Shown: positions 9,956-30,067 of the stretch, in pieces
How the letters are laid out: every line of letters starts with the position of its first letter
How positions within the stretch are numbered: position 1 is the stretch's first letter
Origin: a virus
Reading direction: 5' to 3' (one strand)
DNA: 30,888 bases
IMG/VR virus record: IMGVR_UViG_3300036831_000239
Coordinates: 1-30,888 of that record
Position numbers and translations under genes: made by a program
The notes under the pieces: generated by a model
Seen by the model: only the letters and a program-made list of their open reading frames with translations
Told to the model about the DNA's origin: nothing
Databases searched by the model: none

Positions 9956-9958
9956 CTT

Positions 9959-9970: not shown

Positions 9971-9998
9971 TCCGCCGTCAACAATGAAGGGCATCATG

Positions 9999-13792: not shown

Positions 13793-14275
13793 ATGTCGGA
13801 AACCGAAGAACGCGCGCGCGTCTGTGCGATCGCGAAGACGTGGATCGGCACGCCCTTCCGCGATCAGGGCAACGTGAAAGGCCCGAACGGCGCCGTCGAT
13901 TGCGCCATGATGCTCGTCGCTGTGTTTCAGGAAGCGGGACTGCTTGATCCGGCTTACGACCCGCGGCCCTATCCGCCACAATTCCATTTGCACCGCGGTG
14001 AAGAGCGGTTCCTGAAGGCGATCGACGGGATCATCGCCGCGCGCGCCCGCGGGGCGGAAGTCTCGCGCGCAGCGATTGCCGGAGACGTCATCGTCTATCG
14101 CGTCGCGCGCTGCTTCAGCCACGGCGGCCTTGTCATCGAAAACGAACACCTCATCCACGCCTATTACCGTTCGCAGCGCGTGGCGGTTTCATCGCTGCAC
14201 GAAATCGAACTCGCCTGCCTCCCCGACGGCAAGCCGCGGCCGTTCAAGCTGTTCGATTTATGGGCGCACGCATGA
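13793..14275 (+). CDS. NlpC/P60 tail-tip peptidoglycan hydrolase, RcGTA g14-like
   Basis: 160 residues, ATG at 13793 two bases after the previous stop. It would cleave peptidoglycan peptides during DNA entry. NlpC/P60 marks: TWIGTPFRDQG, catalytic C37 in GAVDCAMMLV, H110 in CFSHGGLVIE and H122 in LIHAYY. Length is right for the tail-associated family. The start used avoids an earlier in-frame ATG (13694) inside the preceding gene. It ends in an ATGA overlap with the tip gene. Confidence 0.88.
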   Translation: MSETEERARVCAIAKTWIGTPFRDQGNVKGPNGAVDCAMMLVAVFQEAGLLDPAYDPRPYPPQFHLHRGEERFLKAIDGIIAARARGAEVSRAAIAGDVIVYRVARCFSHGGLVIENEHLIHAYYRSQRVAVSSLHEIELACLPDGKPRPFKLFDLWAHA

Positions 14276-15651
14276 GCTTCTTGACCGGTGCGATGGGAGG
14301 GACCAACGCGTCACGGCCGACCGTCTATACCGGCATCCAGATCCAGACTTCGGCCCAGGGCGTGCCGATCGCCATCGTCTGGGGCAAGAACCGCATCGCC
14401 CCCAATCTCATCTGGTACAACAATTTCCAGAGCCACAAGCAGTCGCAGAAAGGCGCCGGCGGCAAGGGCGGCTCCAAAGGTTCCGGCAACTACACCTACA
14501 CGGCATCGGTTATTCTGGCGCTCTGCGAAGGCCCGATGCACGGCACGGCGCCCAATTACGGCATCGAGGCGGTGTGGGCGGACCAGACGGAATACTTTAC
14601 CGGCGGCCTTGCGAAGCTGAACCTCAGCGTAGCGCCGGGCACCGCTTCGCAAGGCGTGTGGGCCTTTCTGACGAGCAATTATCCCGCCCAGGCGCTCGCC
14701 TATGCCTACACGGCCTACCTGTACACGGAGACCTATCAGCTCGGCTCGTCCGCCGCGCTGCCGAACCACAATTTCGAAGTGGCGGGTGTGCTCGCCTATT
14801 CGATGGCGTCTTCCGGCGCGCCGAACGGCGATGCCAACCCCGCCGATATCATCTCGGACTTCCTGACCAATCCGCAATACTCAATCGGGATTGCGAGCGC
14901 CGCGCTCGATGCGCCTTCGCTGGCTTTCTACAAGACCTATTGCACCGCGGCCGGCATCTTCTTCTCGCCGGTGCTCGGCGGCAACAACGGGCAGGAGCAG
15001 ACAAGCTCGGTTCTCGATCGCTGGGCGGCGCTCTCGAATACCTGGATTTTCTGGTCGGGGGGCGTGTTCAAATTCGTGCCGTTGGGCGACAGCGCAATCA
15101 CGAATAACGGCGTCACCTACACGCCGAACCTGACCATTCAGTACGACCTGACATACGACGATTTCATCGCCACCAAAGTGAAGCAGGGCGCCTCATCAGG
15201 CGACGGCGCGAGCAAGACGGGAGACGGCGGTCCTATCCTGGTGACGCGCGCGGATCCCGCCGATTGCCCCAATCACGTGAAGGTCGAGATCAAGGACCGC
15301 GGCAACGCCTACAATTCCGCGCCCTACGAATGGCAGGATCAAGGTCTCGTCGACCAGTTTGGGCAGATCGATTCGACCGTCACCCAGGCGCATGAGATTT
15401 GCGAGCTGTCCATCGCTGCATCCGTGGCGCAACTCATCGGCCAGCGCGCGGCCTATATCCGCAACACCTACAGTTTCAAGCTCGGTTACGAATTCTCGCT
15501 CCTTGAGCCCGGCGATCTTGTCAGCCTGACCGATCCGCATATCGGCTTGACCCAATTCCCCGTGCGCATCCGCACCATCGACGAGGACGAATCCGGAAAC
15601 CTTTCGATCGTCGCCGAAGAATTCCCAGGCGGCATCGGGACGGCGCTCTAA
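14272..15651 (+). CDS. tail tip (J/megatron-like) protein, N-terminal part
   Basis: 459 residues, starting in an ATGA overlap. It resembles the N-terminal two thirds of alphaproteobacterial tail tip proteins (Phage-tail_3 type): GIQIQTSAQGVPIAIVWGKN, a Gly-rich loop, YTYTASVILALCEGP, then a C-terminal part with EWQDQGLVDQFG and FSLLEPGDLVSLTD. It stops at IVAEEFPGGIGTAL. In intact relatives this point is followed by a linker and then an 'NP-P-x-I-F-E-P' region. That region lies instead at 17856-18872. I therefore read this as the 5' part of a gene split by insertion. It could still be made as a separate chain. Confidence 0.75.
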   Translation: MSFLTGAMGGTNASRPTVYTGIQIQTSAQGVPIAIVWGKNRIAPNLIWYNNFQSHKQSQKGAGGKGGSKGSGNYTYTASVILALCEGPMHGTAPNYGIEAVWADQTEYFTGGLAKLNLSVAPGTASQGVWAFLTSNYPAQALAYAYTAYLYTETYQLGSSAALPNHNFEVAGVLAYSMASSGAPNGDANPADIISDFLTNPQYSIGIASAALDAPSLAFYKTYCTAAGIFFSPVLGGNNGQEQTSSVLDRWAALSNTWIFWSGGVFKFVPLGDSAITNNGVTYTPNLTIQYDLTYDDFIATKVKQGASSGDGASKTGDGGPILVTRADPADCPNHVKVEIKDRGNAYNSAPYEWQDQGLVDQFGQIDSTVTQAHEICELSIAASVAQLIGQRAAYIRNTYSFKLGYEFSLLEPGDLVSLTDPHIGLTQFPVRIRTIDEDESGNLSIVAEEFPGGIGTAL

Positions 15652-15687: not shown

Positions 15688-15894
15688 ATGTCAGAACAAT
15701 CCGACTTCGGCGATGGCGTTGGCTTCTCGGTGAAACGCCCGAACTCGACAGACGGGGCTTCCGCCCCCAACGTGAAGGGCAGATTATCCGACTTCGCGAA
15801 GGGAGCGGAAACACAATGGCCTTCCAAAGACCAAAGCCGCCAGAATGGGCCGGGTTCTTCGCGTCTATTCTCGTCTTGGGGGCATCCCAAGTGA
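15688..15894 (+). CDS. possible small ORF overlapping the two-TM gene
   Basis: 68 residues (MSEQSDFGDGVGFSVKRPN...). The first 45 residues look soluble and protein-like; the rest overlaps the next gene in another frame. The overlap of 79 nt and the weak ribosome site argue against it. It might instead be the remnant of a gene truncated when the insert formed. Confidence 0.3.
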   Translation: MSEQSDFGDGVGFSVKRPNSTDGASAPNVKGRLSDFAKGAETQWPSKDQSRQNGPGSSRLFSSWGHPK

Positions 15895-16961
15895 TCGGGG
15901 TGGGCAACAACGCCGCGCTACAAACCTGGTTGTTCTACTTGGGGGCGGGTGGATTAGTGCTCTCTCTCGTCTGGTATGCCGCGCGCCTAATTACTTCGTA
16001 TTTTGGCGCTCATTCCGAGAACGGTTCTGGGCGACTGGATATGCGCGTCAGCACGTATGCTGGCCACGATATTTCAGGCACTGTCTACACCGGCGAGACA
16101 GTAAACGTACACCATCACCACGCGCCGCAACCTCACCCAATGGGCACGGCCTTGGGGCTGTTACCGCCGCAACCGCCCACCAAGGAGACGGAAAGCATCT
16201 ATGAGAAGCTAGCCCGCAGAAACCGCGCACAACGGGACACAAAGCTAAAGGACGCGATCAATTACGCGGTCACTGGGCTTTGGGATTCTCCACCACTGGA
16301 AAACACTCAGGGCGGCCTGATTCAAAGGGCTGGAGAAGAACTAGTGAAATTTCATCAATTTGCGCTTGATGGTGAATTGCGCGTCTGGGGTCAACATCCA
16401 GTAAGCAAAATCTATGTGGAAATCCCGCCGCATTACTGGACGGCAAATCGAATTCGCTTTCTAAGCATATTTCTTGATCAAACAGCCATGGAAGTCGACG
16501 ATGCGTGCGAACTGCCGAGACCGCCATACACTGATCATATGGTTAGCAAGGTTCAGGTAGAAAGGTTGTGGCCGCCGACAGATGCGAACGAAATGCTTTC
16601 TCTGCAACAAGCATCGCAGGTAGCGTACGAAGTGGCAGAAAGAGACGGTTGGCTGGACTTAGTCGTAAACCGGAAGGCAGTCGAACACGCGCAGCTGGCG
16701 CAATTTAAATACATGATGGTGCTGGTGGGCGCAGACGGACTTGCGGTTCTTACGGGAATCAGACCGCCGTCAACGCAACGATATCCAATTCCAGCCTACG
16801 AACTGAGGAATGTTCATCCAGAATATGCCGCAACAAGCAATCTGCATGAATCGCACCCCGGCGGCGCACTGATGTATCGGGACGTTTCCATAAGCAGGCG
16901 AGACTTAGACAAGGTCATTGAAAAGTACCGGGGCCATGCAGAGAACGCGAGGCAACAATGA
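15816..16961 (+). CDS. two-TM protein of unknown function carried by the insert
   Basis: 381 residues; GGGAG (15801-15805) lies 10 nt before the ATG. Two membrane segments (about residues 12-30 and 37-58) are followed by a polar stretch with alternating small residues (STYAGHDISGTVYTGETVNV) and a HHHH run (about 99-102). Then comes a large soluble domain of about 260 residues with charged helices (YEKLARRNRAQRDTKLKDAI) and a beta-rich end. The soluble part probably faces the cytoplasm. I recognise no family. It is less GC-rich than the phage genes. A role as a cargo gene, for example superinfection exclusion or defence, is a guess from architecture and place. Confidence 0.8.
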   Translation: MAFQRPKPPEWAGFFASILVLGASQVIGVGNNAALQTWLFYLGAGGLVLSLVWYAARLITSYFGAHSENGSGRLDMRVSTYAGHDISGTVYTGETVNVHHHHAPQPHPMGTALGLLPPQPPTKETESIYEKLARRNRAQRDTKLKDAINYAVTGLWDSPPLENTQGGLIQRAGEELVKFHQFALDGELRVWGQHPVSKIYVEIPPHYWTANRIRFLSIFLDQTAMEVDDACELPRPPYTDHMVSKVQVERLWPPTDANEMLSLQQASQVAYEVAERDGWLDLVVNRKAVEHAQLAQFKYMMVLVGADGLAVLTGIRPPSTQRYPIPAYELRNVHPEYAATSNLHESHPGGALMYRDVSISRRDLDKVIEKYRGHAENARQQ

Positions 16962-17358: not shown

Positions 17359-17553
17359 CTAGCAAAGTTTTTTGTTTCGGCAGTTTCCTATGGCGACGAT
17401 ATGGAAGTCGGTCGCAATCTGCGAAATGAACGTCGATGTCTCGTCCTGGGCGCGCGCGGGACGAATAACAGGAGCAAAGACATTGGCCCAAAGGCCGATA
17501 GCGATGGCCGCTAGAATAATCTTGGTAGTGCGATCAACAACTGGCGCGGTCAT
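17359..17553 (-). CDS. small exported or membrane-anchored protein
   Basis: 64 residues from the ATG at 17553 (GGAG 10 nt upstream); a GTG at 17580 would add nine. Residues about 10-30 are hydrophobic (IILAAIAIGLWANVFAPVI) and followed by RPARAQDE, a likely signal peptidase site. The mature part is short and ends in NCRNKKLC, with two cysteines that could pair. Similar small proteins (hydrophobic start with GLWAN, a short helix, C-terminal cysteines) occur in rhizobial-type genomes, to my memory without known function. It is first in a two-gene minus-strand unit. Confidence 0.65.
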   Translation of the reverse strand: MTAPVVDRTTKIILAAIAIGLWANVFAPVIRPARAQDETSTFISQIATDFHIVAIGNCRNKKLC

Positions 17554-17855: not shown

Positions 17856-18872
17856 ATGCCAGGACAGCAGCAATCCGCGAGCGGTGGCAGCTACGATCCG
17901 AATGTCGATCCGGGCGATGTCAATCCGCCCGCGATCTTCGAGCCCTCCATGGCGCTCTGCATCTCCGGCGCACCCGAAGTGTGGGTTACGGCGAGCGGAG
18001 GCACCGATTGGGGCGGGGCGATCGTCTCGATTTCTTTCGACGGCACGAACTTTTCCGTCATCGGTCACATCACCGCGCCGGCCCTCCAGGGCGGTCTAAC
18101 GGCAGCCCTGCCCTATCACGGCGATCCGGACAATTCGGGCACGCTATCGATCGATCTGACCGCGAGCGCCGGCATCATGCCGACGAGCGCCACCCACGCC
18201 GATGCCGATGCCTTCCGGACCCTTGCGTATGTCTGTTCCAATTTCAGTACGGTGGCGCCGAACGACGGCGAGCTGATCGCTTATGGTGCGGTTGCGGCAA
18301 CAGGAACCTACACCAGCGACCTCGCCTATCTCAGGCGCGGGCTCTACGGCACGCCCGACATGGGCCATGCGATCACGTCGTTCTTCACCCGCATCGATCT
18401 CGGGGAAATCGGCAAGGCACTCAACTCGATCATCGTGTACAAGCTGCCGCCGCAATATATTGGCGCCACGCTCTATCTGAAATTCCAGAGCTTCAACGTG
18501 TTCGGCCGGGCCTTACAGGATATCGCGAGCGTCGTCGAATACACCTATGTGCCTTCGGGGCAAGGCTACGGCTACAGCGCCGGCGTGCCTTCTACCCCGA
18601 CCGGCCTCGCGGGTTACGCGCGTGGTGCTTCCGGTTCCGGCTACAACACGCTCAACTGGACCGCCAATCCGTCCGGCGATGCCGTGCAGTATTATACCGT
18701 GCTCCGGCGCCTGAGTGGTTTCGGTTCATACACTGCGATCGGCACGTCATCGGGCACGAGCTACAACGACAACAGTGCCGCGACCGGCATCACCTACGAT
18801 TACGAACTGACCGCGACCAATGTTTCCGGCACCAGCGCCGCCGCAGGTCCCGTCACCGTCACGACCAACTGA
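17856..18872 (+). CDS. tail tip (J/megatron-like) protein, C-terminal part
   Basis: 338 residues. NVDPGDVNPPAIFEP (about residues 15-29), then PEVWVTASGGTDWGGAIVSI and RGLYGTPDMGHA, form the middle-to-C-terminal region of alphaproteobacterial tail tip proteins. The end (about 245-338, TPTGLAGYARG...YYTVLRRLSG...YDYELTATN) is one FN3 domain. The frame is open upstream from 17775 without a convincing start, and the ATG at 17856 has only a weak GGTGG. This looks like the 3' part of the gene begun at 14272. Whether it is translated on its own is open. Confidence 0.75.
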   Translation: MPGQQQSASGGSYDPNVDPGDVNPPAIFEPSMALCISGAPEVWVTASGGTDWGGAIVSISFDGTNFSVIGHITAPALQGGLTAALPYHGDPDNSGTLSIDLTASAGIMPTSATHADADAFRTLAYVCSNFSTVAPNDGELIAYGAVAATGTYTSDLAYLRRGLYGTPDMGHAITSFFTRIDLGEIGKALNSIIVYKLPPQYIGATLYLKFQSFNVFGRALQDIASVVEYTYVPSGQGYGYSAGVPSTPTGLAGYARGASGSGYNTLNWTANPSGDAVQYYTVLRRLSGFGSYTAIGTSSGTSYNDNSAATGITYDYELTATNVSGTSAAAGPVTVTTN

Positions 18873-18887
18873 TCTTTCACCAAACAA

Positions 18888-19003
18888 ACCCATCCTCGCG
18901 AACGCGGGGACCCAGAGGGTGGAGCGCGACAAAAAAGGCGCGTGCCGTCGCTTCGTTTTCACCCGCCACGCATCTGGGTTCCCGCTTTCGCGGGAATGAC
19001 ACC
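18888..19003. repeat. inverted-repeat element before the next tail gene
   Basis: The left arm (CATCCTCGCGAACGCGGGGA, then CCCAGAGGGTGGAGCG) pairs imperfectly with the right arm (CGCCACGCATCTGGGTTCCC, then GCTTTCGCGGGAATG). Each arm has its own small hairpin (CGCGAACGCG; CCCGCTTTCGCGGG). The form 'CATTCCCGCGAAAGCGGGAA' is a common dispersed repeat in proteobacterial genomes. It fills most of the 148-nt gap between genes. Confidence 0.7.
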
Positions 19004-19020
19004 ATTGAAGAGGGCTCGCG

Positions 19021-19500
19021 ATGGCCAGCATTGTCCTTCAGGCGCCGGGGCCGAATATCGCCTTTGGTGCGGCACCATCCGGCTCGACCTACATCTCCGA
19101 TGCGAACGGGCTGGTCGTCATCACCAACGGCAGCGTAAATGACGAACTGTATCTTCTCGGCGCCGGGTGCATCGCGCTCGTTCCGGGCGGATTCGGCGGC
19201 AATTCGAACCAGATCGGCACGTTGTACACCGTGCAAGTAACCGATCTCGCACAGATCATCGTCTGCACCAACGCGGGCGCCTTCACGCTCAATTTGCCCG
19301 CGACATTCCCAGTCGGCTTCTACGTCGACGCTATCCAGGGCGGCGCCGGCACGGTAACGGCAAACCCGCTCGGCGGCGGCTCGACCGTCGGCGCGCATCA
19401 GACGACGCAAGCGCAATACCTGCAGCTCCGATGCGTCGTCATCGCGAACAATGCCGGACTGACCGCGGCCGTGTGGGACACGATCCGGATGGGCGCGTAA
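19021..19500 (+). CDS. tail accessory protein of unknown function
   Basis: 159 residues; AGAGGG lies about 5 nt before the ATG. It is Gly/Ala/Thr-rich and beta-like throughout (MASIVLQAPGPNIAFGAAPS..., LGGGSTVGAHQTTQAQYLQL), ending AVWDTIRMGA. It follows the tip gene and precedes two fibre-like genes, so a tip or fibre-attachment role is likely. No family is recognised. Only 4 nt separate it from the next start. Confidence 0.7.
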   Translation: MASIVLQAPGPNIAFGAAPSGSTYISDANGLVVITNGSVNDELYLLGAGCIALVPGGFGGNSNQIGTLYTVQVTDLAQIIVCTNAGAFTLNLPATFPVGFYVDAIQGGAGTVTANPLGGGSTVGAHQTTQAQYLQLRCVVIANNAGLTAAVWDTIRMGA

Positions 19501-19504
19501 GCCC

Positions 19505-20095
19505 GTGGCGAGGAACAACGCCTCCTACTCGTTCCAGATTGTCGTCAGGCAGGCGAACGGCCAGCCCTACGACCTGACCGGCCGTTCGCTGGTCATGCAG
19601 TTCAAGAACTCGACCGGCTCTGCCCCAACAGGAGCGGCAACGCTGCAAACGAGCGACGGCTCGATCGTCGTACAGAACCCTGCCGCGGCCGGCATTGCCA
19701 CCGGTACGCTCTCCGCGACCCAGATGGGCCTCATGGCTCAGGGTACCTGGTACTGGGACATGCTCGATATCACCAATGCGGGCGTGCCGGTGTCGCTCGG
19801 TGCGGGGATTCTTCCCGTCCGCCAGGGCATCACGAATTCGACAACGCCGGTGATGCCGACGCCGGGGATTCTTCTCCCTGGGGCCGGGATAGACGCCATT
19901 CAGGTCACGGCACCGGGCGATTCGATCACGCTTCAGCTTGCGCCATCGGGACCACCCGGCAGCGGCGCCAGTTACCTGCCGCAAACTGCGCCGTCAGCTC
20001 CGGCCACAGGCTTTCTCGTCTACTGCGACGCCTTTGACGGGATCCTCAAAGCCATTTCGTCCAACGGCGAAATCACGGACCTCGCTCTGCCATGA
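19505..20095 (+). CDS. baseplate/fibre-attachment protein, BppU-N-like start
   Basis: 196 residues from a GTG at 19505. The first 100 residues (YSFQIVVRQANGQPYDLTGR, VMQFKN, GATLQTSDGSIVV, GTWYWDMLDI) resemble the N-terminal domain of phage upper baseplate proteins, a beta sandwich that docks fibres. A Pro/Gly-rich linker follows (about 110-165), then TGFLVYCDAFDGILKAISSNGEITDLALP-like end, the type that closes many fibre chains. The stop overlaps the next ATG (ATGA). Confidence 0.6.
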   Translation: MARNNASYSFQIVVRQANGQPYDLTGRSLVMQFKNSTGSAPTGAATLQTSDGSIVVQNPAAAGIATGTLSATQMGLMAQGTWYWDMLDITNAGVPVSLGAGILPVRQGITNSTTPVMPTPGILLPGAGIDAIQVTAPGDSITLQLAPSGPPGSGASYLPQTAPSAPATGFLVYCDAFDGILKAISSNGEITDLALP

Positions 20096-22503
20096 AACCA
20101 CGTTCGATCCTCGCTGCGCTGTCCATGGCCCTGTTCGCATCGCCAGCGGCAGCAAGTGAAATCTCCTACATGCCAAGCTGGCTCAACGTGCTGGCGTATG
20201 GCGAGAAGGCGGACGGTCATTTCGGCGATGCTTCTGTAACCTGGTCGGCGGGAACCGCTGGAACGGCCCAAGTCTGCTGGCCTGGCGGCACGTTCACCAC
20301 AGCCGACATCGGCAAGGGCGTCACACTCGACCTGGCCGATGTGGGCAATGCGCCGCTCAACACGCACTTTACTGCGGTCGCCAGCACGCACTGCATGACG
20401 GTGGCTGACACCATCACCTATCCGAGCACGTACATTCTCCCCACGTGGGTCGACGTGGACGGCGCGAACTACGGCTACGGCTACCTCCCCGGCGACACGG
20501 GGCACTGTTCATACTCGGGCTGCGGCGGCGCGCCTTCGTACACCGTGAAGGTCGTGCAGCTGATCGATCCGACCGCGCCGCACGGCCCGACGATCAATTC
20601 CGGGGGCTTGGGCGGGACCAGCGGCTCTCGTTACCTCATGGGCACCAGCGCGGCGCTGGCGAACCGGCCCTTCGTCATCAACGCAACGATCTCCGTTGGA
20701 GGGGCGGTAACGGCGCTCGGGTCGATCGTGCAGGTTGGATATTACGACTCGGCCTCGGGCAGCCCGCTGTCTGTGGTGCCAGCCATCCAGAACGCGCAAG
20801 GGCAATGGGTACAGGACACGTCTAATCCGCTGACCGGTGCGACGATCAATCCGGTTTTCGGCGTAGCGCCGGGCGGTCTCGCCATGACGCGATCGAGCAC
20901 GGCGATCAACAATTTCTCCTGTCCGAACGGAAGCGCTACGACGGCGATGAGCGGCAGCGGTTCAGGTCTCATGATCGACTGTGACGAGGTGCTGTCGGCG
21001 GCGTGGTGGGGGACGGACAACTGGCAGTTCGAAGAGAACGCCTTCACCGCGATGCTGAACTATAACAGCGCCGGCGACCCGAAGTGCCTCTACCACCCAG
21101 CTGGAAAGTACTACCACTCGAAGGTCTGGAATTTCACGCTGAACGGCCGCTCATACCTCTGCGGCGACTCCAATGCGCGTTTCCCGGGACTGACCAACAT
21201 CTTCGGTGCTCCCAATTCGGCGGGCGACATGGTCGATGTGGCGGGCTGCAACAAACGTGGACTGCAGCACTTTGGCGGCGGTCTCCTGTACGACGACCCG
21301 ACCTCCGGCACCACGGCGGGCTGCGGCATCGTCGGCATCCTGTTTTCGGGGGTGCGCGAAAGCACCCAGCACCAGAACGCCGTGATGAGCGGCGGCGAAT
21401 GCAACTGGTGCACGCTCGATGTCTATTGTTTCAACATGCGCGGCCGCTGCATCGGCACCAACGCAGATGCTTCCGGCAATGCCGGGTGGGGCGAGAGCCA
21501 GGTCGATTATCGCGCCGAGAACATGGGCGACGTGGACCAGAACGACGGCGGCGGCCACGTCATGCATTATCCATCTGTTGACCTGACGGCGCTGGGCGGC
21601 GGCAGCAATAATAATCTGCGCGTCGGGTGCAACAATCAGGCGCGCGTCTACCGCAGCTTCGGCAGGTCCGTGTACATCGCCGACGAGGCGGCCGGCAACG
21701 CGCACAACATCTGGATTTGCCTCGGCGCCCATTCCGAGGGGTCGTCCATGTTTGGGACCGGCGCGGGCGGCAATCTCCTGCAGCTCGGCGACAATGCAGG
21801 CGCGACGACCGATTGGCCGAAACTGGGCGGGGGCGTCGTCTCTGGCGTGGACGGCAACATCAGCCACGTCAGCGTCTGGGGCGACTACACAAACCCGCAA
21901 TACGGCACCGCGGCGATCCTCAGCTACAATGGCAACGACATTAAGGGCTTTGTATCCATTGGCGGGACCAACGAGGCGCTGGGCAGGGGTATCGACAACG
22001 AGAACTGTACGGGCTGCTCGATCAGTGTGACCCACATCTCCGCCAACGACTACGGCTATACGTTAGGCGGCGGTGGCAGCGGCAACTCGCTCAATGCCTA
22101 TGGCAGCGAAGCCTCGGTAGCGCAGAACATCGAAGCCGCACAACAGCCGCAAGGTGCCAATCCGGCCCAGTATCCCGGCTGGACGACAATGCCTGGGTTC
22201 CCGACGTGGACGGTTCAAAACACCATCAAGGCACATCCTGGTGGCGGCCAGTCGAACGCGACGCTCCTGTCCGGGGCGATCGACAGCGTCAGCCTCGTGA
22301 CCTCCACTGACGACAGCGTCAAACTCATGGCGGCGTGGTTTGGTGGCTGTCAGTTCGTCATCAACAATGGCTCCAACCCCATGATGGTGTGGGGCTATTC
22401 GGTTTCCGATCAGATCAACAACGCCTCGTCCATCGAACAGGCCGCAAACACTGCGTACTGGTATTGCTCGTACAAACCGAACAAGTGGTACAGGCAGACC
22501 TGA
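20092..22503 (+). CDS. large fibre/spike-like protein with a signal peptide
   Basis: 803 residues, starting in an ATGA overlap. Residues 1-22 are a clear Sec signal: basic start KPR, hydrophobic core, SPAAAS before the likely cut. The rest is Gly/Ser/Asn/Thr-rich and beta-like; residues about 300-680 have short repeating turns (GDNAGATTDWPKLGGGVVSG, HISANDYGYTLGGGGSGNS) as in right-handed beta-helix spikes. About 20 cysteines are spread along it, which suits an exported, disulfide-bonded protein better than a cytoplasmic virion fibre. Position suggests receptor binding. No catalytic motif is visible. Fold and role are inference. Confidence 0.75.
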   Translation: MKPRSILAALSMALFASPAAASEISYMPSWLNVLAYGEKADGHFGDASVTWSAGTAGTAQVCWPGGTFTTADIGKGVTLDLADVGNAPLNTHFTAVASTHCMTVADTITYPSTYILPTWVDVDGANYGYGYLPGDTGHCSYSGCGGAPSYTVKVVQLIDPTAPHGPTINSGGLGGTSGSRYLMGTSAALANRPFVINATISVGGAVTALGSIVQVGYYDSASGSPLSVVPAIQNAQGQWVQDTSNPLTGATINPVFGVAPGGLAMTRSSTAINNFSCPNGSATTAMSGSGSGLMIDCDEVLSAAWWGTDNWQFEENAFTAMLNYNSAGDPKCLYHPAGKYYHSKVWNFTLNGRSYLCGDSNARFPGLTNIFGAPNSAGDMVDVAGCNKRGLQHFGGGLLYDDPTSGTTAGCGIVGILFSGVRESTQHQNAVMSGGECNWCTLDVYCFNMRGRCIGTNADASGNAGWGESQVDYRAENMGDVDQNDGGGHVMHYPSVDLTALGGGSNNNLRVGCNNQARVYRSFGRSVYIADEAAGNAHNIWICLGAHSEGSSMFGTGAGGNLLQLGDNAGATTDWPKLGGGVVSGVDGNISHVSVWGDYTNPQYGTAAILSYNGNDIKGFVSIGGTNEALGRGIDNENCTGCSISVTHISANDYGYTLGGGGSGNSLNAYGSEASVAQNIEAAQQPQGANPAQYPGWTTMPGFPTWTVQNTIKAHPGGGQSNATLLSGAIDSVSLVTSTDDSVKLMAAWFGGCQFVINNGSNPMMVWGYSVSDQINNASSIEQAANTAYWYCSYKPNKWYRQT

Positions 22504-22603
22504 AGTTTCGAGCCCGGTGAATTTAGAACTTTACCAAGCAGGCGCGCTGCACCAACTGGGCGGCGCGAAATAACCACTTCCTTCCATATCCGGAGTCTCC
22601 CGC

Positions 22604-22693
22604 ATGAAACGCTGGCTTCTCGCCGCGCTGCTCGCGCTTGTGCCGAACGCGTTTGAAGAGACGTTCGAAAATGACGGAGCGGGTTGCCGATGA
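22604..22693 (+). pseudogene. remnant of a signal-peptide fibre gene, now a 29-aa ORF
   Basis: MKRWLLAALLALVP is nearly the same as the start of the gene at 25402 (MKRRYLAALLALVP), and the DNA CTCGCCGCGCTGCTCGCGCT is identical in both. GGAG (22592-22595) lies 8 nt upstream, again as at 25402. After residue 14 the similarity ends and the frame runs into NAFEETFENDGAGCR and stops in an ATGA overlap with the lysozyme. I read it as a decayed copy, with the body of the gene deleted. It may still feed ribosomes to the lysozyme gene. Confidence 0.6.
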
Positions 22694-23130
22694 ACCAGGT
22701 TGCCCTCGATTTCATCAAGGCGCGCGAGAAGTGCCGCCTTCTGGCCTATCAGGATTCCGGCTGCAAATGGACCGTTGGATGGGGCGCGACAGGCCCAGCC
22801 ATAGGCTACGGCACGCAATGGACACAGGCCGAAGCGGAGGCGGACCTGATTGCTCGCGTCGGGAAAGTGGAAACGGCCGTCAGCATGGCCGTTGCCCCGT
22901 TGCGCCTCACGTTGCAGCAGGAAGCCGCGCTGATTTCGTTTGCGTACAACGTGGGCACGTTCGCCGCCCTCGGCCCTGACAGCCACGTGCGGGCCTTCGT
23001 AAAGGTGCGGAACTGGCTCGCCGCAATGAAGGCGCTGCTCACCTGGGATCACGTCGCGGGCGTCGAAATGCAGGGGCTTTTCAAGCGCCGCTGCGAAGAA
23101 GCCGCGCTCTTTCTTGAAGGAACCGTGTAA
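22690..23130 (+). CDS. endolysin, GH24 phage lysozyme
   Basis: 146 residues; GGAG (22676-22679) lies 10 nt before the ATG, and a TTG at 22684 is less likely. It hydrolyses the glycan strands of peptidoglycan at the end of infection. The full catalytic pattern E-8-D-5-T is present: E13, D22 and T28 in AREKCRLLAYQDSGCKWTVG. Later QQEAALISFAYNVG is the usual second block of the family. There is no signal peptide or SAR segment, so release would depend on a holin. It opens the lysis cassette. Its stop overlaps the next start (TAATG). Confidence 0.92.
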   Translation: MNQVALDFIKAREKCRLLAYQDSGCKWTVGWGATGPAIGYGTQWTQAEAEADLIARVGKVETAVSMAVAPLRLTLQQEAALISFAYNVGTFAALGPDSHVRAFVKVRNWLAAMKALLTWDHVAGVEMQGLFKRRCEEAALFLEGTV

Positions 23131-23381
23131 TGTTCGGAAAGCACCGCGAAGCCCTCGACCTCCGCGCATGGCCAATCCAGCCCGCGCCCGAGACCTTCAA
23201 TCCGGAACCGCTGTACAGCGACGTAAAGGCGTATGCGGCGCGCCACAAGGTCAGCCGCGATCTCGCATACAGGACGCTGCGCAAGCAAATGCTGCTTGAT
23301 GCCGTGCCCTGCTGCCCATCTTTGCGCGGCGATCCGCTGCTCGCAGCCATTCTCTGCGAAACGATCAAAGCCCTGCCGTGA
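23130..23381 (+). CDS. small unknown protein in the lysis cassette
   Basis: 83 residues; GAAGGA lies 8 nt before the ATG, which overlaps the lysozyme stop. YSDVKAYAARHKVSRDLAYRTLRKQM (about residues 29-54) is a basic helical region. It is soluble and without signal. The regular spacing and codon pattern make it a likely gene. I recognise no family. Confidence 0.65.
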   Translation: MFGKHREALDLRAWPIQPAPETFNPEPLYSDVKAYAARHKVSRDLAYRTLRKQMLLDAVPCCPSLRGDPLLAAILCETIKALP

Positions 23382-23382
23382 C

Positions 23383-23619
23383 ATGCGCTTCCTCATGCAA
23401 TTCGCCGCGGCGTGGCTCACGCTGACATGGCACACAAATGCGCCGGATGGCCGGCCGCATCCGGGATATTCCTACTGCCTTCCCGGTGAAGCTGGTCCGC
23501 GAGGCTGGGCGCGGACAAAGACGCTGCTCGACTCCGACTGGCGTGCGTACAGCCGGGCATTGCAGCCGAGCAACTGCGACATTCTCGCGAGAAGCATTCA
23601 AGCCCACCTGAACTTCTGA
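23383..23619 (+). CDS. small unknown protein, possible membrane-associated start
   Basis: 78 residues (MRFLMQFAAAWLTLTWHTNAP...). The first 17 residues are hydrophobic and could be a short signal or anchor. Then PDGRPHPGYSYCLPGEAGPRGWARTK and a polar end. It starts one base after the previous stop, which supports coupling, but there is no good ribosome site. Function unknown. Confidence 0.5.
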   Translation: MRFLMQFAAAWLTLTWHTNAPDGRPHPGYSYCLPGEAGPRGWARTKTLLDSDWRAYSRALQPSNCDILARSIQAHLNF

Positions 23620-23668
23620 CCCGCCGTATCCGCGAGCCGTTCCGTCGCCCATGCCGTTTGCGGCGTGT

Positions 23669-23686
23669 GCAGGCTTTCGAGCCTGC
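23669..23686. other. hairpin with TTCG loop
   Basis: GCAGGCT-TTCG-AGCCTGC: a perfect 7-bp stem closed by the very stable UUCG-type tetraloop. No T-run follows, so it is not a standard terminator. It lies in the 128-nt gap before the 23748 gene and could protect or separate transcripts. Confidence 0.45.
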
Positions 23687-23747
23687 TTCAGGGCGGCTCA
23701 CGGATGCGACGCAATTGTGCCCGCATCGTCCGCAAAGGAAACGAAAA

Positions 23748-24047
23748 ATGTCCGCACTCCTAGCCTCTCTCTGGGCGCTGCTTCAGCAGGCCGCGCTCTC
23801 GGTCACCGCCAAGCTCGTCGCCTCCTTCAGCACGATCCTGGGCAATCTCACGACGGACGAACGCCAGATTCTCGTCGACGCCAAGACCGCATTCCTGAAC
23901 GACATCCAGGCCGGCAAGTCGCCGGAACAGGCTGCCGCCGATGCCCTCACCGTTTTCTTCAATGAAGAGAAAGGCGAGGTGAACAAGATCGTGCTGTACT
24001 TCTTCCGGGCGTTCCTCGCCGCCTTCGGCGTGCCGCAGAGCGGCTGA
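23748..24047 (+). CDS. small phage protein in the lysis cassette
   Basis: 99 residues; AAGGAA lies 7 nt before the ATG. Residues 1-30 are weakly hydrophobic (LLASLWALLQQAALSVTAKLVASF); the middle (TTDERQILVDAKTAFLNDIQAGKSPEQAAADAL) is an amphipathic helix; the end (NKIVLYFFRAFLAAFGVPQ) is hydrophobic again. It could associate with the inner membrane. Position suggests a lysis or host-interaction role. No family is recognised. Confidence 0.65.
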   Translation: MSALLASLWALLQQAALSVTAKLVASFSTILGNLTTDERQILVDAKTAFLNDIQAGKSPEQAAADALTVFFNEEKGEVNKIVLYFFRAFLAAFGVPQSG

Positions 24048-24065
24048 TTGTTTCGCGTGTGATCC

Positions 24066-24096
24066 AAACGCAGCCGGAGAGGCGGGGGCTGCGTTT
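24066..24096 (+). terminator. 10-bp stem hairpin, possible weak terminator
   Basis: AAACGCAGCC (24066-24075) pairs perfectly with GGCTGCGTTT (24087-24096). The 3' side ends in TTTC then CATCC, so the U-tract is short. It sits between the genes ending at 24047 and starting at 24158. Confidence 0.45.
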
Positions 24097-24157
24097 CATC
24101 CTCCGCGCACGAGCAATTCCGCACACCGCCTCACTTCTCCTTCAAAGGTACAATCCC

Positions 24158-24397
24158 ATGCTTAATCTCATTCGCGCACTCGTGCCCGGCGGCCTGTTGC
24201 GCGCCCAGGTGCTGAAATGGTTGCGCTGGGCCTCCACGGCCGTCGGCGCGTGGGTGCTCACGTCAACCTATGTCCGGCTGACAACGCACATCCATTCGCT
24301 CTCGCAGTCCGATGCGGCGAGCATATCGGGCGTGGTCGCGACGGCTGCAGCCGGTCTCGTGCTCACGTTCGGCCATGCTGGACGCGAAGAAGGTTGA
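24158..24397 (+). CDS. two-TM holin candidate
   Basis: 79 residues; CAAAGG lies about 9 nt before the ATG. Two hydrophobic segments (about 24-41, WASTAVGAWVLTSTYVRL; about 54-72, ASISGVVATAAAGLVLTFG) are joined by a short polar loop, and the C-terminus is charged. Size and topology fit a class II holin, which would open the inner membrane for the lysozyme. The similar DNA order lysozyme-small genes-holin-lipoprotein supports it. There is no sequence motif that proves holin function. Confidence 0.6.
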   Translation: MLNLIRALVPGGLLRAQVLKWLRWASTAVGAWVLTSTYVRLTTHIHSLSQSDAASISGVVATAAAGLVLTFGHAGREEG

Positions 24398-24578
24398 TTC
24401 GACGATCAAAGGAACTGCAGCGCTTACGGCAGTCGCGACGGCGCTCGCTATTGAAGCCGGCGCTACCACGCCGGCCCAGGTTCAAGCCGCTGCCGCGGCC
24501 GGCCCCGAGGCGCTGGCGCAGGTGATTCCGCCTCCCGGCCAACTTGCACGGTTCGCGCTCGCGACGGGGAGGTTCTGA
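24375..24578 (+). CDS. small Ala-rich protein
   Basis: 67 residues (MLDAKKVDSTIKGTAALTAV...), overlapping the holin candidate by 23 nt and ending in a TGATG overlap with the lipoprotein gene. It is Ala-rich and helical, with a Pro-rich break (QVIPPPGQ). No strong ribosome site; an ATG at 24312 is in frame but overlaps more. The tight junction with the next gene is the best support. Confidence 0.5.
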   Translation: MLDAKKVDSTIKGTAALTAVATALAIEAGATTPAQVQAAAAAGPEALAQVIPPPGQLARFALATGRF

Positions 24579-24814
24579 TGTTCACCCGGCGGGCAGACCG
24601 TGTGTTCGGGCTGATCGTGTTGATCCTTGCCGCGCTGATCCTGCATGGCTGCGCGCACGGGCCAGCCGTGCACTGTCCGCCCATCCTTCCCTATTCGAGC
24701 CTCGAGCAGTCCGTCGCGGCCGCAGAGCTCGGCAAGATGCCGCCAGACGCGGAGATCCCGCGCATGATGGAGGACTACAGCGCGCTCCGGGCGGCGTGCC
24801 GGGCCGGGAAATGA
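24578..24814 (+). CDS. Rz1-like outer-membrane lipoprotein (o-spanin candidate)
   Basis: 78 residues. A basic start (RRADR), a hydrophobic core and a lipobox LHGC with C25 show lipoprotein export. The mature part has CPPILPYSSLEQSVAAAELGKM, then a helical end DYSALRAACRAG. Proteins like this are common in phage lysis cassettes and are taken to be Rz1-type outer-membrane spanin subunits. The following one-TM coiled-coil protein could be its inner partner, though in lambda the two genes overlap out of frame. Function is inference. Confidence 0.65.
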   Translation: MFTRRADRVFGLIVLILAALILHGCAHGPAVHCPPILPYSSLEQSVAAAELGKMPPDAEIPRMMEDYSALRAACRAGK

Positions 24815-24815
24815 C

Positions 24816-25088
24816 ATGCAGCTCTTGTGGCAGGCTTTCCAGCAATTTGGTCCGTACGGTCTCATCATCGCCGCGTCCGGGTTTATCATCTGGACGTTGT
24901 GGAAAGATCGCCAGGAACAGGCAAAAACGGCACCGCTGCTGCTGGAGCGCGTGATCACCGCGCTGAACAACTCGACAGCGGCGATCGACAAGAACACGGC
25001 CGCCAAAGAGGAAAATACCCGCGTGAGCCAGCTTCAATCCGAGGCTTTCAACAGGCTCCGCGACGCGTTGGGACGCGTGCTCTCATGA
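24816..25088 (+). CDS. one-TM coiled-coil protein, BhlA/UviB- or Rz-like
   Basis: 90 residues. One membrane segment (about 10-28, FGPYGLIIAASGFIIWTLW) near the N-terminus is followed by a long polar helix (VITALNNSTAAIDKNTAAKEENTRVSQLQ-type heptads). This topology fits both small bacteriocin/holin-like proteins (BhlA/UviB) and an inner-membrane spanin. It starts one base after the lipoprotein gene and ends in an ATGA overlap with the next ORF. Confidence 0.6.
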   Translation: MQLLWQAFQQFGPYGLIIAASGFIIWTLWKDRQEQAKTAPLLLERVITALNNSTAAIDKNTAAKEENTRVSQLQSEAFNRLRDALGRVLS

Positions 25089-25282
25089 ATGGGTTCGCGG
25101 AATTCCTGTGCCTGATGTTCGCGCCCGGAAAACTCGCCGCGGCGCGCCGGCAGCAACTTGCCCAGGTGCGAGCGGCTGCAATCCGAAACATCCAGGCCGC
25201 GATGCGCAACGGCGAAGCCGCAGAGCGCAACACCACCGCCGGGTTTCAGGACACACGCGGGGCAAACAGCGACGTTGCCTGA
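25085..25282 (+). CDS. small basic helical protein
   Basis: 65 residues from an ATG overlapping the previous stop. MNGFAEFLCLMFAPGKLAAARRQQ begins with a short hydrophobic stretch, then a basic helix (RQQLAQVRAAAIRNIQAAMRNG). It is last in the lysis run, just before the terminator at 25309. No family is recognised. Confidence 0.5.
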   Translation: MNGFAEFLCLMFAPGKLAAARRQQLAQVRAAAIRNIQAAMRNGEAAERNTTAGFQDTRGANSDVA

Positions 25283-25308
25283 TGCCTTGTCCGGGCTCCA
25301 ACTGAATC

Positions 25309-25364
25309 AGCCTCACCCTTCCCCGCATGCGCGGGGACCAAGCTCAGGGTGAGGCTCTTTTTCT
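25309..25364 (+). terminator. strong nested hairpin with T-run
   Basis: An 11-bp perfect outer stem (AGCCTCACCCT, 25309-25319; AGGGTGAGGCT, 25346-25356) encloses a second hairpin (CCCCGCATGCGCGGGG). CTTTTTCTGG follows. It should end transcription of the lysis genes. The outer-plus-inner form also resembles dispersed host repeats of the type 'CCTCACCCTGAGCTTGG'. The gene at 25402 would then need its own promoter, or readthrough. Confidence 0.7.
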
Positions 25365-25401
25365 GGCCGCACTTCCGCTTTTTCTCTCACGGAGTTCTTC
25401 G

Positions 25402-27027
25402 ATGAAGCGACGGTATCTCGCCGCGCTGCTCGCGCTTGTGCCCTTGGGTGCGGCCGCACAGACGCATGCGCAGTACACAAACACGGACGGCTCGCAATCC
25501 GGGGCTGTGGCGGCGCTGTGTTCGAACGGCAGCACCAACAGCTCCATCCCGTGTCCCGGCGATGATCCTACGGCGGGGCAGTACAAAAACTCCGACGGCA
25601 GCCAATCCGCTGCGGCCGTTCTGCTTTGCCCGCAGGGTGGTCTTACCATCGCCTGCTCATTTGCTCCCTCTTCGTCCCCCACCTTCACCGGCATCGTCAC
25701 TCTGCCGGACGGATCGACGTGGAACGGTACACATTTAACCGACCTCGGCGGTATCGTGATCAACAGGTCCCTTTCCCTGATTGGCGGTTTCGCGAATACA
25801 GGCTTGCTTGTCGAGAACGCCGCTACCGGCACGTACAGTTCCGGCGGCGCAACTTATCTCAATCTGTTCTACGGAACCTCGGATCACGCTGCGATGGCCG
25901 CAGGCGGCAATACGGCGTTGCTGGAATCATTCTATCAGTTCGGTTCAGCTGCAATGACCGGAAACAGGACGGCTTTTGGCGCTCATGCCGTTCAGATGGC
26001 GACCACCGGCAACACCGGCGCGGGCTTTGCCTATTCGGGCATCACCGGCTCCGCGAAGGCCACCGCGAACGATAACGGCACCGGCACGACGGCTGCGACG
26101 GCAAGGGGCATCTTTCAAGGCGTAGTCGCCATCGGTGATGGTGAAGCAAGCGCCACTGATCTGTACGAAATCAACGGGATTGAGGACGACGTTATATGTG
26201 TGAGCGGGTGCAGTGTCTATAAGCGCATCGGCTCATCGAGCATAATCCTGAACGGCAATGCCGGTCAGGGCGCGGTGGTCGACACGGCCTACGAGGTCGG
26301 CGCGCAGCCGGGTGCCCTGGGGCTGTGGAAATACGGCTACCAGCTATGTGGTGCAGACGGCATTTCCACTGGCTGCCTCGACGCCGCCGCGACCGCGATC
26401 GGATGCCCTGCGAACTGTGGTACGATAACGAACTTTGCCGACTCCAGCAACTTTACGATCACCGGTGACGCTTGGAAATCGCCTGGCGCAACCATCGACG
26501 GCTCCGGGAATATCGAGGGAAACAATCTCTCCATCACCGCCACGAAAGTGCTCACGATCAGCAATACGCTGACTCTTGCCGGTACGGACAGCTCCACGCT
26601 GAACATCGGCTCTGGCGGGACACTCGGGAGCAACGCCTTCAACAGCACGTCTTATTGCGCAACTGCTGGCTGTACCATGGCCGGCACGCTCAACATGAAC
26701 GCCAATCAAATCACCAATTCCGGAACGTTTCAGTCCAACAACGGCAACGGCGCGGAGATTCCAAATCAATCGTGTCTAGCCTCGGCCACGACGGTGCAGT
26801 TCATACCGTACAAAGGCAGCACATCGACTGGCATGAGCTGTCATGGGGTATCGGGTGACTGGGGTATGGACGCAGCAGGAACAGAAGACTTCTGGGGCAG
26901 TTCAACTGCCATCACCATCGACTCCGGTATTGCCCTTGACTTCGCTTCATTGCCGTCCGGCACACCGTCCACTTACGCCTGTTTCACGACAGGCGGCCAA
27001 CTCATTTCATCAGCAACAGCTTGCTAA
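25402..27027 (+). CDS. second fibre-like protein with a signal peptide
   Basis: 541 residues; GGAG lies about 8 nt before the ATG at 25402, and the open frame upstream is the terminator. MKRRYLAALLALVPLGAAAQ is a Sec signal. Two tandem repeats follow, QYTNTDGSQSGAVAALC and QYKNSDGSQSAAAVLLC (about residues 24-75). The body is Gly/Ser/Thr-rich and beta-like, with an LTISNTLTLAGTDSSTLNIG turn pattern, and the end (LPSGTPSTYACFTTGGQLIS) is of the type that closes tail fibres. About 16 cysteines are present. Fibre-like sequence with an export signal is unusual; see findings. Confidence 0.75.
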   Translation: MKRRYLAALLALVPLGAAAQTHAQYTNTDGSQSGAVAALCSNGSTNSSIPCPGDDPTAGQYKNSDGSQSAAAVLLCPQGGLTIACSFAPSSSPTFTGIVTLPDGSTWNGTHLTDLGGIVINRSLSLIGGFANTGLLVENAATGTYSSGGATYLNLFYGTSDHAAMAAGGNTALLESFYQFGSAAMTGNRTAFGAHAVQMATTGNTGAGFAYSGITGSAKATANDNGTGTTAATARGIFQGVVAIGDGEASATDLYEINGIEDDVICVSGCSVYKRIGSSSIILNGNAGQGAVVDTAYEVGAQPGALGLWKYGYQLCGADGISTGCLDAAATAIGCPANCGTITNFADSSNFTITGDAWKSPGATIDGSGNIEGNNLSITATKVLTISNTLTLAGTDSSTLNIGSGGTLGSNAFNSTSYCATAGCTMAGTLNMNANQITNSGTFQSNNGNGAEIPNQSCLASATTVQFIPYKGSTSTGMSCHGVSGDWGMDAAGTEDFWGSSTAITIDSGIALDFASLPSGTPSTYACFTTGGQLISSATAC

Positions 27028-27037
27028 GGGAAACCCC

Positions 27038-27448
27038 ATGAAACGCTTTGTAGCAATTCTCGCGCTCGCATCTCTCGCGTCAGTCTCCGCACGCGCGGAG
27101 GACAAGACGCCTGTGCCAACGCCAAAACTAACCGCGACAACCGCCGCTCTCAATGCCGACGCGTTGAAGAAAGCGACGGACGCGTTGGCGATAGCACAGC
27201 AGGAACTGGCCCAAGCAAAAGCACCGCCTCCGCCAACTCCACCAGCTCCGCCGTGTTCGGTCGCAACTGTCCCGGATAGCTGGCGTGGCTCTGTATCGAA
27301 GGATCAAGTCTTCAAATTGTTAAGCCTCGTACAAGACGTTCCAATGAAAACAACCGACCGTGCCGTGACGACGGAGATGGCGTTCGCTGGCATCTTCTCC
27401 GACGTGGATACGTGGTGTAAGGCGAACGCGCAAAAACCGACAAAATGA
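27038..27448 (+). CDS. small exported protein with coiled coil and Pro-rich linker
   Basis: 136 residues; AAGGG lies about 8 nt upstream. MKRFVAILALASLASVSARAED is a signal peptide with an ARA cut site. Then a helix (ALNADALKKATDALAIAQQELAQAKA), a proline run (PPPPTPPAPP, about residues 66-76), and a C-terminal domain with two cysteines (PCSVATVP; DTWCKANA). It follows the fibre-like gene by 10 nt, so they are likely co-transcribed. Function unknown; it might be a periplasmic partner of that protein. Confidence 0.7.
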   Translation: MKRFVAILALASLASVSARAEDKTPVPTPKLTATTAALNADALKKATDALAIAQQELAQAKAPPPPTPPAPPCSVATVPDSWRGSVSKDQVFKLLSLVQDVPMKTTDRAVTTEMAFAGIFSDVDTWCKANAQKPTK

Positions 27449-28234: not shown

Positions 28235-30067
28235 ATGAGTACGGCAGCAGTCGCGGAAAGATCGTTCTCGGTTGAGCCAAGCGGAAAAGAGCCCATACGC
28301 TTGGTGATTTGGGACTTGGACAACACCTACTGGACCGGCACGCTTACCGAAGGCGGAATTCATCTGCGAGACGATACTCAAAACATCGTGGTGAAGCTGG
28401 CGCATCGCGGGATTATAAGTTCCATCTGTTCTAAGAACGATCACGATAGCGTACAGAAGATATTAAGCGATGCAGGTGTGTGGGATTACTTTGTCTTTCC
28501 CACCATCAATTGGGAAGCCAAGGGGCCGCGGTTGGAGGCACTTGTCGACGAACTACAGTTGCGTCCGGGAAGCGTGCTGTTCATCGACGATAATCCGGTG
28601 AACCTGGCCGAGGCCGTACACTTTATGCCAGAACTTCAAACCGCGACAGAGGCCTTCATTCCGAGAATGCTAGAAAGTCCCCTTCTCAAGGGGAAGGACG
28701 ACCGCCAGCTAAAGCGTCTTGCTCAGTACCGGCAAATGCAAACCCGGAAATCCGACGCCGCGGCTTCGGGACAGTCCGTAGACGATTTTCTTCGTAGATC
28801 GAATATCCAAGTCTTCATCGACCACGATCTGGAAGCCCATGCATCAAGGGCAATTGAGCTGATAAACCGGACAAATCAGCTGAACTTTACAAAGCTACGT
28901 CTCTCGGAAGATGTGGCGGCAGCAACGGCAGAGTTAATGACACAGGTAAGGACATTCAATGTGCAGGCCGGACTGCTGCGTGTGACCGACAACTATGGCG
29001 ACCACGGAATTGTTGGTTTATACGTGCTCGATGGGGCCAGGGATAAGCTGATTCACTTCTGTTTTTCATGCCGAATTCTTGGGATGCGAGTGGAAACATG
29101 GCTTTACAGGAAACTCGGCAAACCTCACCTGTCGATAATCGGTGAAGTACGGTCCAACCCGGTTATGGACTGCACAGACATAGACTGGATAAATTATCGT
29201 TCGCAATCAGTGGCCGAGCTTGGAGATCGAGAGGGTGCAAGCACGCCACAACTCGACTGGATTGTTGTCAAGGGCGGATGTGATCTTTCAGCTGTTTCCC
29301 ATTACCTCCGATTTTCTACCGCTGAACTAATCGGCGAATTCAACACGGGGCGGCACGGACTCAACATCCGGAATGATCATTCGTGTTTTCTTCACCACGC
29401 TTTTCATGGCGTTGATCCCGGCGTATTACGGGAATTGGAACGACTTGGATACGCCCCAGGGGATTTTGAAAGTGCTCTTCTTACACCACGTTCGGGTATG
29501 GGTTTCTGGATACTCAGCTTCTGGACAGACAGTTGTCATGCACTGTACCGCCATCGCGAATTGGGCTGCGTCGCGCCGTTTCTAGTGCCAGGGGCCCGGG
29601 GCCATCTGCGGAACGCTCAACTGATGCAAACCGAAGATATCCCAGTAGAAAATCGATCACAGTTTATTGTAGACGCCTTGCAAACCATTAAGAATGATTG
29701 GGCGTACATTGGCTTGATAGACGGCAAACAGTTCAAGGATAATCTACGCCCAGTTCTCGAAAGCGCTCCTGTTGGCACAATCATCGTCCTTGTGAAAAGG
29801 TCGGAATCTTACTTTGATAAACGAACAAACGTTCGCCATTTTTCACAGTATGGAAAGGACTTAAATATCTGGATGACAGAATTGTCCGAAGAGTTTTCAA
29901 ACGTTTTGTTGATGGATATCAGCGACTACGTACAAAATGATGCTGAGGTGCAAGGGTGGCTACATTTCGATCGAGTAGTGTACATGCGGCTGGCCGAAGA
30001 CATTAAGGCCAGGATCGTGGAAACAAACACTTCAAAAGAAATGGGTCGCGCGGCGCCGCCACTTTGA
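28235..30067 (+). CDS. FkbH-like HAD-IIIC protein with extra C-terminal domain
   Basis: 610 residues. Residues 20-150 are a HAD domain: WDLDNTYWTGTL with D27 and D29, ICSKND (motif II region), and LFIDDNP (about 115-121, motif IV). About 170-320 form the GNAT-like second domain of FkbH (IELINRTNQLNFT, VTDNYGDHGIVG, SCRILGMRVETW). FkbH proteins load glyceryl units from 1,3-bisphosphoglycerate onto a carrier protein for polyketides; relatives lie in surface-polysaccharide loci. About 340-600 may be an SGNH-like domain, with GGCDLS near its start and WLHFDRVVYMRLA near its end. No carrier protein gene is in the window. GC is lower than in the phage genes, so it is host or cargo. Confidence 0.85.
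   Translation: MSTAAVAERSFSVEPSGKEPIRLVIWDLDNTYWTGTLTEGGIHLRDDTQNIVVKLAHRGIISSICSKNDHDSVQKILSDAGVWDYFVFPTINWEAKGPRLEALVDELQLRPGSVLFIDDNPVNLAEAVHFMPELQTATEAFIPRMLESPLLKGKDDRQLKRLAQYRQMQTRKSDAAASGQSVDDFLRRSNIQVFIDHDLEAHASRAIELINRTNQLNFTKLRLSEDVAAATAELMTQVRTFNVQAGLLRVTDNYGDHGIVGLYVLDGARDKLIHFCFSCRILGMRVETWLYRKLGKPHLSIIGEVRSNPVMDCTDIDWINYRSQSVAELGDREGASTPQLDWIVVKGGCDLSAVSHYLRFSTAELIGEFNTGRHGLNIRNDHSCFLHHAFHGVDPGVLRELERLGYAPGDFESALLTPRSGMGFWILSFWTDSCHALYRHRELGCVAPFLVPGARGHLRNAQLMQTEDIPVENRSQFIVDALQTIKNDWAYIGLIDGKQFKDNLRPVLESAPVGTIIVLVKRSESYFDKRTNVRHFSQYGKDLNIWMTELSEEFSNVLLMDISDYVQNDAEVQGWLHFDRVVYMRLAEDIKARIVETNTSKEMGRAAPPL

Follow-up and report, generated by a model that had tools for sequence, protein, structure and literature searches.

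According to textbooks, tailed phages assemble their virions entirely in the cytoplasm, and the search for receptor-binding proteins is directed at proteins that lack a signal peptide. Fibres can be added to particles that are already finished, as in T4 and P22, and the adsorption protein pIII of filamentous phages carries a signal peptide and disulphide bonds and is matured outside the cytoplasm. In phage lambda, the gene lom, which lies between the tail-spike and tail-fibre genes, specifies a protein that lysogens make and export (PMC12309495). Here we analyze a 30,888-base stretch of viral DNA (IMG/VR record IMGVR_UViG_3300036831_000239), referred to below as the window, and two of its proteins, fib1 and fib2, which combine the gene positions of tail fibres with predicted Sec signal peptides and many cysteines. 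We give slightly better than even chances to the reading that fib1 and fib2 are late-made, Sec-exported proteins of the fibre or spike type, which would be disulphide-bonded in the periplasm and freed at lysis, with attachment to the virion as the favoured last step. Export of proteins of this type by a real, cleaved signal is well supported by sequence comparison, because the signal has the form of an add-on in front of a fibre N-terminus that stays fixed, cysteine pairs have been gained together with it, cysteine counts are even, and the signal drifts in front of a fixed mature start.

The locus resembles each of these described systems in some respects and departs from each in others. As expected for tailed-phage fibres and tailspikes, fib1 sits after the tail genes, its start overlapping the stop of the preceding PHROG 1084 gene by 4 nucleotides (nt; ATGA), and fib2 lies beyond the lysis genes, while relatives carry a fibre N-terminal domain, Collar domains and pectate-lyase-like domains, and fib2 has fibre-like repetitive text. 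Unlike known fibres and tailspikes, the proteins described here have a predicted cleavable Sec signal and 0.6-3 cysteines per 100 amino acids (aa), in even numbers. The filamentous-phage protein pIII is likewise an exported adsorption protein with a signal and disulphides, but it has a membrane anchor and is assembled in the course of extrusion, with no lysis involved, whereas the window shows no such anchor and belongs to a tailed phage with a lysis cassette. Lom, too, is an exported protein encoded among tail genes; it is, however, an outer-membrane beta-barrel, and fib1 and fib2 match no such family in Pfam and lie with late genes. The open-access literature searched, the coverage of which was incomplete, yielded no account of tail fibres with signal peptides in tailed phages, and exported tail fibres are not described in the passages on signal peptides in phages found in PMC12946066, PMC5723332, PMC9723563, PMC6102473, PMC8143477, PMC3338817 and PMC6469090.

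Signal peptides and cysteines of fib1 and fib2

N-termini were assessed with a home-made, crude score of the n-, h- and c-regions of Sec/signal peptidase I signals, on which reference signal peptides reach 7.4-10.6 and cytoplasmic proteins stay below 3. A first-pass annotation of the window had placed here two open reading frames (ORFs) of 803 and 541 aa, followed by a third exported protein, and had ascribed to the two long proteins clear signal peptides and about 20 and 16 cysteines. All of this is borne out: the ORF calls returned the same positions and lengths, fib1, fib2 and the third protein take ranks 1, 2 and 3 among the 893 starts of the window (scores 11.5, 10.1 and 9.5), and the mature proteins contain 20, 16 and 2 cysteines, respectively, i.e., 2.6, 3.1 and 1.7 per 100 aa, while a set of twelve further phage genes from the window has 0.89 per 100 aa. 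The N-termini of fib1 and fib2, as well as those of their relatives, display the n-h-c organization of a signal and a cleavage motif of small residues. Neither protein showed a lipobox, a membrane segment or a Pfam domain. The best 19-residue hydropathy of mature fib1 and fib2 (1.67 and 1.55) is not C-terminal, and no C-terminal membrane anchor is predicted. As regards an outer-membrane beta-barrel, Pfam gives no match, and the two sequences end in WYRQT and SATAC.

It seems most improbable that the signal is left unused, either because translation starts downstream or because the hydrophobic N-terminus serves a structural purpose in a fibre that stays in the cytoplasm. In-frame ATG codons do occur at codons 12 and 27 of fib1, and the gene caller preferred codon 12, but a purine-rich ribosome-binding site lies just upstream of the signal-bearing start of both fib2 and the third gene, and several properties of the relatives described below are difficult to reconcile with an unused signal.

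Direct homologues of fib1 and fib2 were detected neither in viral contigs and isolated-phage records nor in PHROGs, Pfam and PDB, and the case for these two proteins therefore rests on position, signal and cysteines. The earlier impression that they look like tail fibres holds for position, composition and relatives; it does not extend to domain matches, as no known fibre or spike domain was matched by fib1 or fib2 in Pfam, PHROGs or PDB. The fib2 sequence contains two QYTNxDGS..C..C units, which are followed by fibre-like repetitive SPTFTGIVTLPDGS text. The C-terminal domain of fib1 (residues 709-803) matches a signal-less structural protein adjoining a capsid-like gene (locus L180), a signal-less tail-region protein (L012) and a signal-bearing pectate-lyase-like protein (L181). 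This domain contains two cysteines in fib1 and in L181, one in L012 and, in L180, one in the first copy and two, at other places, in the second. The L181 protein (9761-11179) has 472 aa and is encoded in a bacterial chromosome.

Signal-bearing proteins in related loci

Since fib1 and fib2 have no direct homologues, the conserved tail-tip protein of the window was taken as bait. Viral contigs and bacterial genomes together yielded 104 loci related to it; where named, these are nearly all alphaproteobacterial, and dereplication left 83. Genes were called with a codon model, and the same signal scoring was applied upstream and downstream of the bait. Among proteins of at least 300 residues in the dereplicated loci, signals were found in 23/88 downstream of the bait vs 1/120 upstream (p = 6e-9), and 15 of the 45 loci having enough sequence encode at least one signal-bearing downstream protein of at least 200 residues. 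Chance signals were rejected as an explanation on the basis of this upstream background and of shuffling: shuffled N-termini pass the signal threshold in 2.5% of cases vs about 30% observed, a difference that also argues against an unused signal. L025 18963-20453, scored as a downstream positive, is actually a membrane transporter and thus a false positive of the crude score.

The closest relative, L001, has tail proteins 70-81% identical to those of the window, and its region corresponding to fib1-fib2 is occupied by unrelated signal-bearing proteins of 952, 215, 286 and 447 residues. All that recurs there from fib2 is the signal and the first QYTNxDGS unit with two cysteines, which stands after the signal of L001 16435-17082. 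A kept slot with swapped content, as seen between the window and L001, is typical of receptor-binding genes. The number of mature cysteines is even in 26 of the 28 signal-bearing fibre-slot proteins (p = 1.5e-6), with signal-less neighbours at chance. Paired cysteines are a signature of an oxidising compartment, and the 20 and 16 mature cysteines of fib1 and fib2, the even counts and the pairs gained with the signal are what proteins folding in such a compartment would be predicted to carry. Separately, two long signal-bearing proteins, L071 15444-18164 (906 aa) and L082 14985-17729 (914 aa), contain a segment resembling a short structural protein that is encoded upstream in many of the same phages, and in related phages small RlpA-like proteins with a signal are repeatedly encoded close to the lysis genes (L008 19039-19407, L042, L060, L069, L073, L093 and L105 19614-19973).

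Presence and absence of the signal can be compared in a fibre family that includes both signal-bearing and signal-less members (L008, L024, L050, L078-L093 and the Bradyrhizobium phage ppBdUSDA122-1) and whose N-terminal domain is common to signal-less tailspikes; in the signal-less L088 4639-6411, for example, this domain is followed by a pectate-lyase-like domain. Signal-less members start with MSQGSTVLPTTG; in signal-bearing members, SQNGL, SQAPL or AEQSS comes after the signal peptide. Predicted cleavage restores the ordinary fibre N-terminus, and the signal is, judging from these alignable starts, an add-on. Signal-less siblings in L172 and L173 hold the same gene slot, after the tail-tip gene. 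The N-terminal domain has exactly two cysteines, in at least three placements, in 17/18 signal-bearing members (none in the remaining one) and no cysteine in 12/12 signal-less members; the p value of this association with the signal, 1.5e-7, is only a guide, because the members are related sequences. On the family tree, the signal must have been gained or lost several times, and well-supported branches force at least two of these changes (the signal-bearing L145 was scored there as signal-less). A second cysteine pair, located in the next domain, is present as a whole pair in six members and absent as a whole pair in four. This tracking of the signal by cysteine pairs again speaks against a signal that is not used. 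A model of the N-terminal domains (predicted local distance difference test, pLDDT, 72) gave weak PDB matches with low template modelling scores, to a phage capsid spike (E 1.3e-3) and a tailspike N-terminus (E 5e-3); among predicted structures, phage fibre, spike and Collar proteins were matched strongly. A PF07484 (Collar) search across the family returned mostly short triplet Collar proteins of ~200 aa, which were judged to represent another system and not phage side fibres.

In a second set of proteins (ppBdUSDA122-1, L169 and L194-L201), signals of 17 to about 33 residues precede a mature start, QNELVPPTSG, that is nearly fixed; the signals of distinct members share 18-68% identity and stay signal-like throughout. 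Such a generic, freely varying signal in front of a sharp mature boundary is as expected of a cleaved Sec signal, and neither a structural helix nor a mistaken start codon would readily account for it; a structural hydrophobic segment was rejected, since the sequence drifts freely right up to the fixed mature start. The signal-bearing fibre follows the tail-tip gene in 7/7 checked contigs, with a second one in tandem wherever the contig is long enough. One member of this set, ppBdUSDA122-1, is a complete phage genome linked to Bradyrhizobium diazoefficiens USDA 122, and its 865-residue signal-bearing protein, which has 18 cysteines and a Collar domain, is annotated as a tail fibre. Like fib1 and fib2, the ppBdUSDA122-1 proteins WAX24263 and WAX24264, one of them annotated as tail fibre, are signal-bearing, have even numbers of cysteines and lie in tandem after the tail-tip gene, but they have no detectable sequence similarity to fib1 and fib2, with which they share only position and character. 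Modules of the signal-bearing Bradyrhizobium fibre recur in twelve proteins from isolated or complete phages, mostly annotated as tail fibre or tail protein; these twelve lack a signal and do not exceed 0.5 cysteines per 100 residues.

Some of the signal-bearing relatives are enzyme-like (GDSL esterase-like or pectate-lyase-like), as would be expected if the exported, disulphide-bonded proteins were soluble factors that never join the virion. Once freed at lysis, these would degrade, deacetylate or bind surface polysaccharide and thereby clear the path for the progeny or block receptors on debris. The chromosomal, exported pectate-lyase-like protein of L181, with its fib1 C-terminal domain, fits this alternative, and the third exported protein of the window and the exported RlpA-like proteins show that phages of the group make use of the periplasm. 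We nevertheless regard a purely soluble role as less likely than attachment to the virion, given that the fibre N-terminal domain, for which a free enzyme would have no need, is intact behind the signal in the best-studied family, and that the signal-bearing fibre and its tandem partner keep their place after the tail-tip gene in the contigs of the second set.

Probable timing and release, and possible attachment to the virion

No promoter was predicted upstream of fib1 or fib2, and in the relatives the fibre-slot genes follow the previous gene at a median distance of 10.5 nt (24/40 at no more than 30 nt). Because the fibre-slot genes lie with the tail genes and fib1 and fib2 have no predicted promoter, the proteins are likely to be expressed late and unlikely to act on a lysogen before induction. 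For fib1 and fib2, neither an exporter nor an anchor for the outer membrane was identified, nor any recognised outer-membrane domain. That the proteins are lysogenic-conversion or superinfection-exclusion factors shown on the lysogen in the manner of lambda Lom is therefore improbable, even though signal peptides are present, lom provides a precedent for an exported protein encoded between tail-spike and tail-fibre genes (PMC12309495), and the lysis genes separate fib2 from the tail operon. Display on the lysogen is also hard to square with the fibre domains of the relatives and with fib1 and fib2 themselves, in which lipobox, membrane segment and Pfam domain are all lacking. The first-pass annotation had offered two proposals, action on the lysogen surface and attachment to particles outside the cytoplasm; the latter is the better one, fib1 being translationally coupled to the late tail operon. 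The premise of that annotation, that export would remove the proteins from virions, was too strong, as fibres can join finished particles and could do so once lysis mixes periplasm and cytoplasm.

In the pathway that we favour, fib1 and fib2 would be made late, together with the tail genes, and carry cleavable Sec signal peptides; they would then be exported, be stripped of the signal and form disulphide bonds as they fold in the periplasm. With neither an exporter nor an anchor found for the outer membrane, they should remain there until the lysis genes burst the cell, and would be released along with the virions. The mature fibres may finally attach to tail tips outside the cytoplasm, a step that is favoured because relatives keep an ordinary fibre N-terminal domain behind the signal. 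For the group as a whole, we tentatively propose, at a little less than an even chance, that these alphaproteobacterial tailed phages complete their virions outside the cytoplasm, with Sec-exported, disulphide-bonded fibres joining the tail tips when lysis mixes the compartments.

Several points weigh against this pathway. The gene fib2 starts 119 nt after its neighbour and beyond the lysis genes, so that separate control is possible. Both fib1 and fib2 lack the shared fibre N-terminal domain and have almost no homologues, and a single-sequence AlphaFold model of fib1 reached a pLDDT of 32 and was left unused. In addition, the signal-bearing protein similar to the fib1 C-terminus is encoded at a chromosomal site of a bacterium that is remote from phage genes (L181), and the relatives resembling GDSL esterases and pectate lyases could work free.

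Gene map and significance of the proposed fibre export

The window opens with a terminase region, continues with head genes, tail genes and a lysis cassette, and ends in low-GC genes on the right (Table 1). The domain of the 159-aa tail-region protein opens a 1238-aa protein in L005, and the 196-aa gene upstream of fib1 has relatives in L001 only. The small lipoprotein-like ORF is a possible outer spanin.

Table 1. Features of the window discussed in the text, with their coordinates and the evidence for them.
Feature	Coordinates	Strand	Evidence
Tail-tip/J-like tail protein	14260..15651	+	33-41% identity over 95-99% to isolated-phage proteins annotated tip attachment, host specificity or tail protein; alignment
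Tail protein, equivalent of the L001-L005 region downstream of the tail-tip gene	17856..18872	+	Gene calls
159-aa tail-region protein	19021..19500	+	70% identical to L001 12419-12913; homologues in L002, L003, L005
196-aa protein immediately upstream of fib1	19505..20095	+	PHROG 1084, E 1.4e-10; stop codon overlaps fib1 start (ATGA)
fib1, 803 aa, predicted signal peptide 1-21 (MKPRSILAALSMALFASPAAA, then SEIS), 20 cysteines	20092..22503	+	ORF, signal score, C-terminal domain match
GH24 phage lysozyme (endolysin), lysis cassette between fib1 and fib2	22690..23130	+	PF00959 E 8e-25; PHROG 7 endolysin E 1.6e-35
Small lipoprotein-like ORF (LILHGC)	24578..24814	+	PHROG 26778 E 2.5e-13; sequence
fib2, 541 aa, predicted signal peptide about 1-19 to 1-23, 16 cysteines	25402..27027	+	ATG at 25402 within 566-aa ORF
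Third exported protein, 136 aa, predicted signal peptide about 1-18	27038..27448	+	ATG 27038, 10 nt past fib2 stop

Several other features of the window can be mentioned. At the right end, 28235-30067 and 30109-30888 (-) encode an FkbH-like HAD protein and a hydroxylase/methyltransferase-like protein at 49-53% GC vs about 62% in the phage part; these are either flanking host genes or cargo. A 381-aa membrane-protein-like ORF (15816-16961), in DNA of lower GC content (0.53-0.59), is inserted between the tail-tip gene and the tail gene that follows it, and a 64-aa ORF with an export-signal-like N-terminus lies between tail genes at 17359-17553 (-). Palindromic repeat-like sequence is found at 18872-19021, between tail genes, and at 25280-25400, just upstream of fib2.

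The pattern seen across these related viruses of soil bacteria suggests that their fibres are sent out of the cell interior to fold, and are not assembled inside. If fibres are indeed exported and disulphide-bonded, many receptor-binding proteins of rhizobial and soil phages would currently be mislabelled as hypothetical proteins or secreted host proteins, and virion assembly would have a new last step, one open to experiment in a phage whose genome is complete and whose host strain is named. If the proteins instead act free, these phages would stockpile surface-active proteins in the periplasm for release at lysis.

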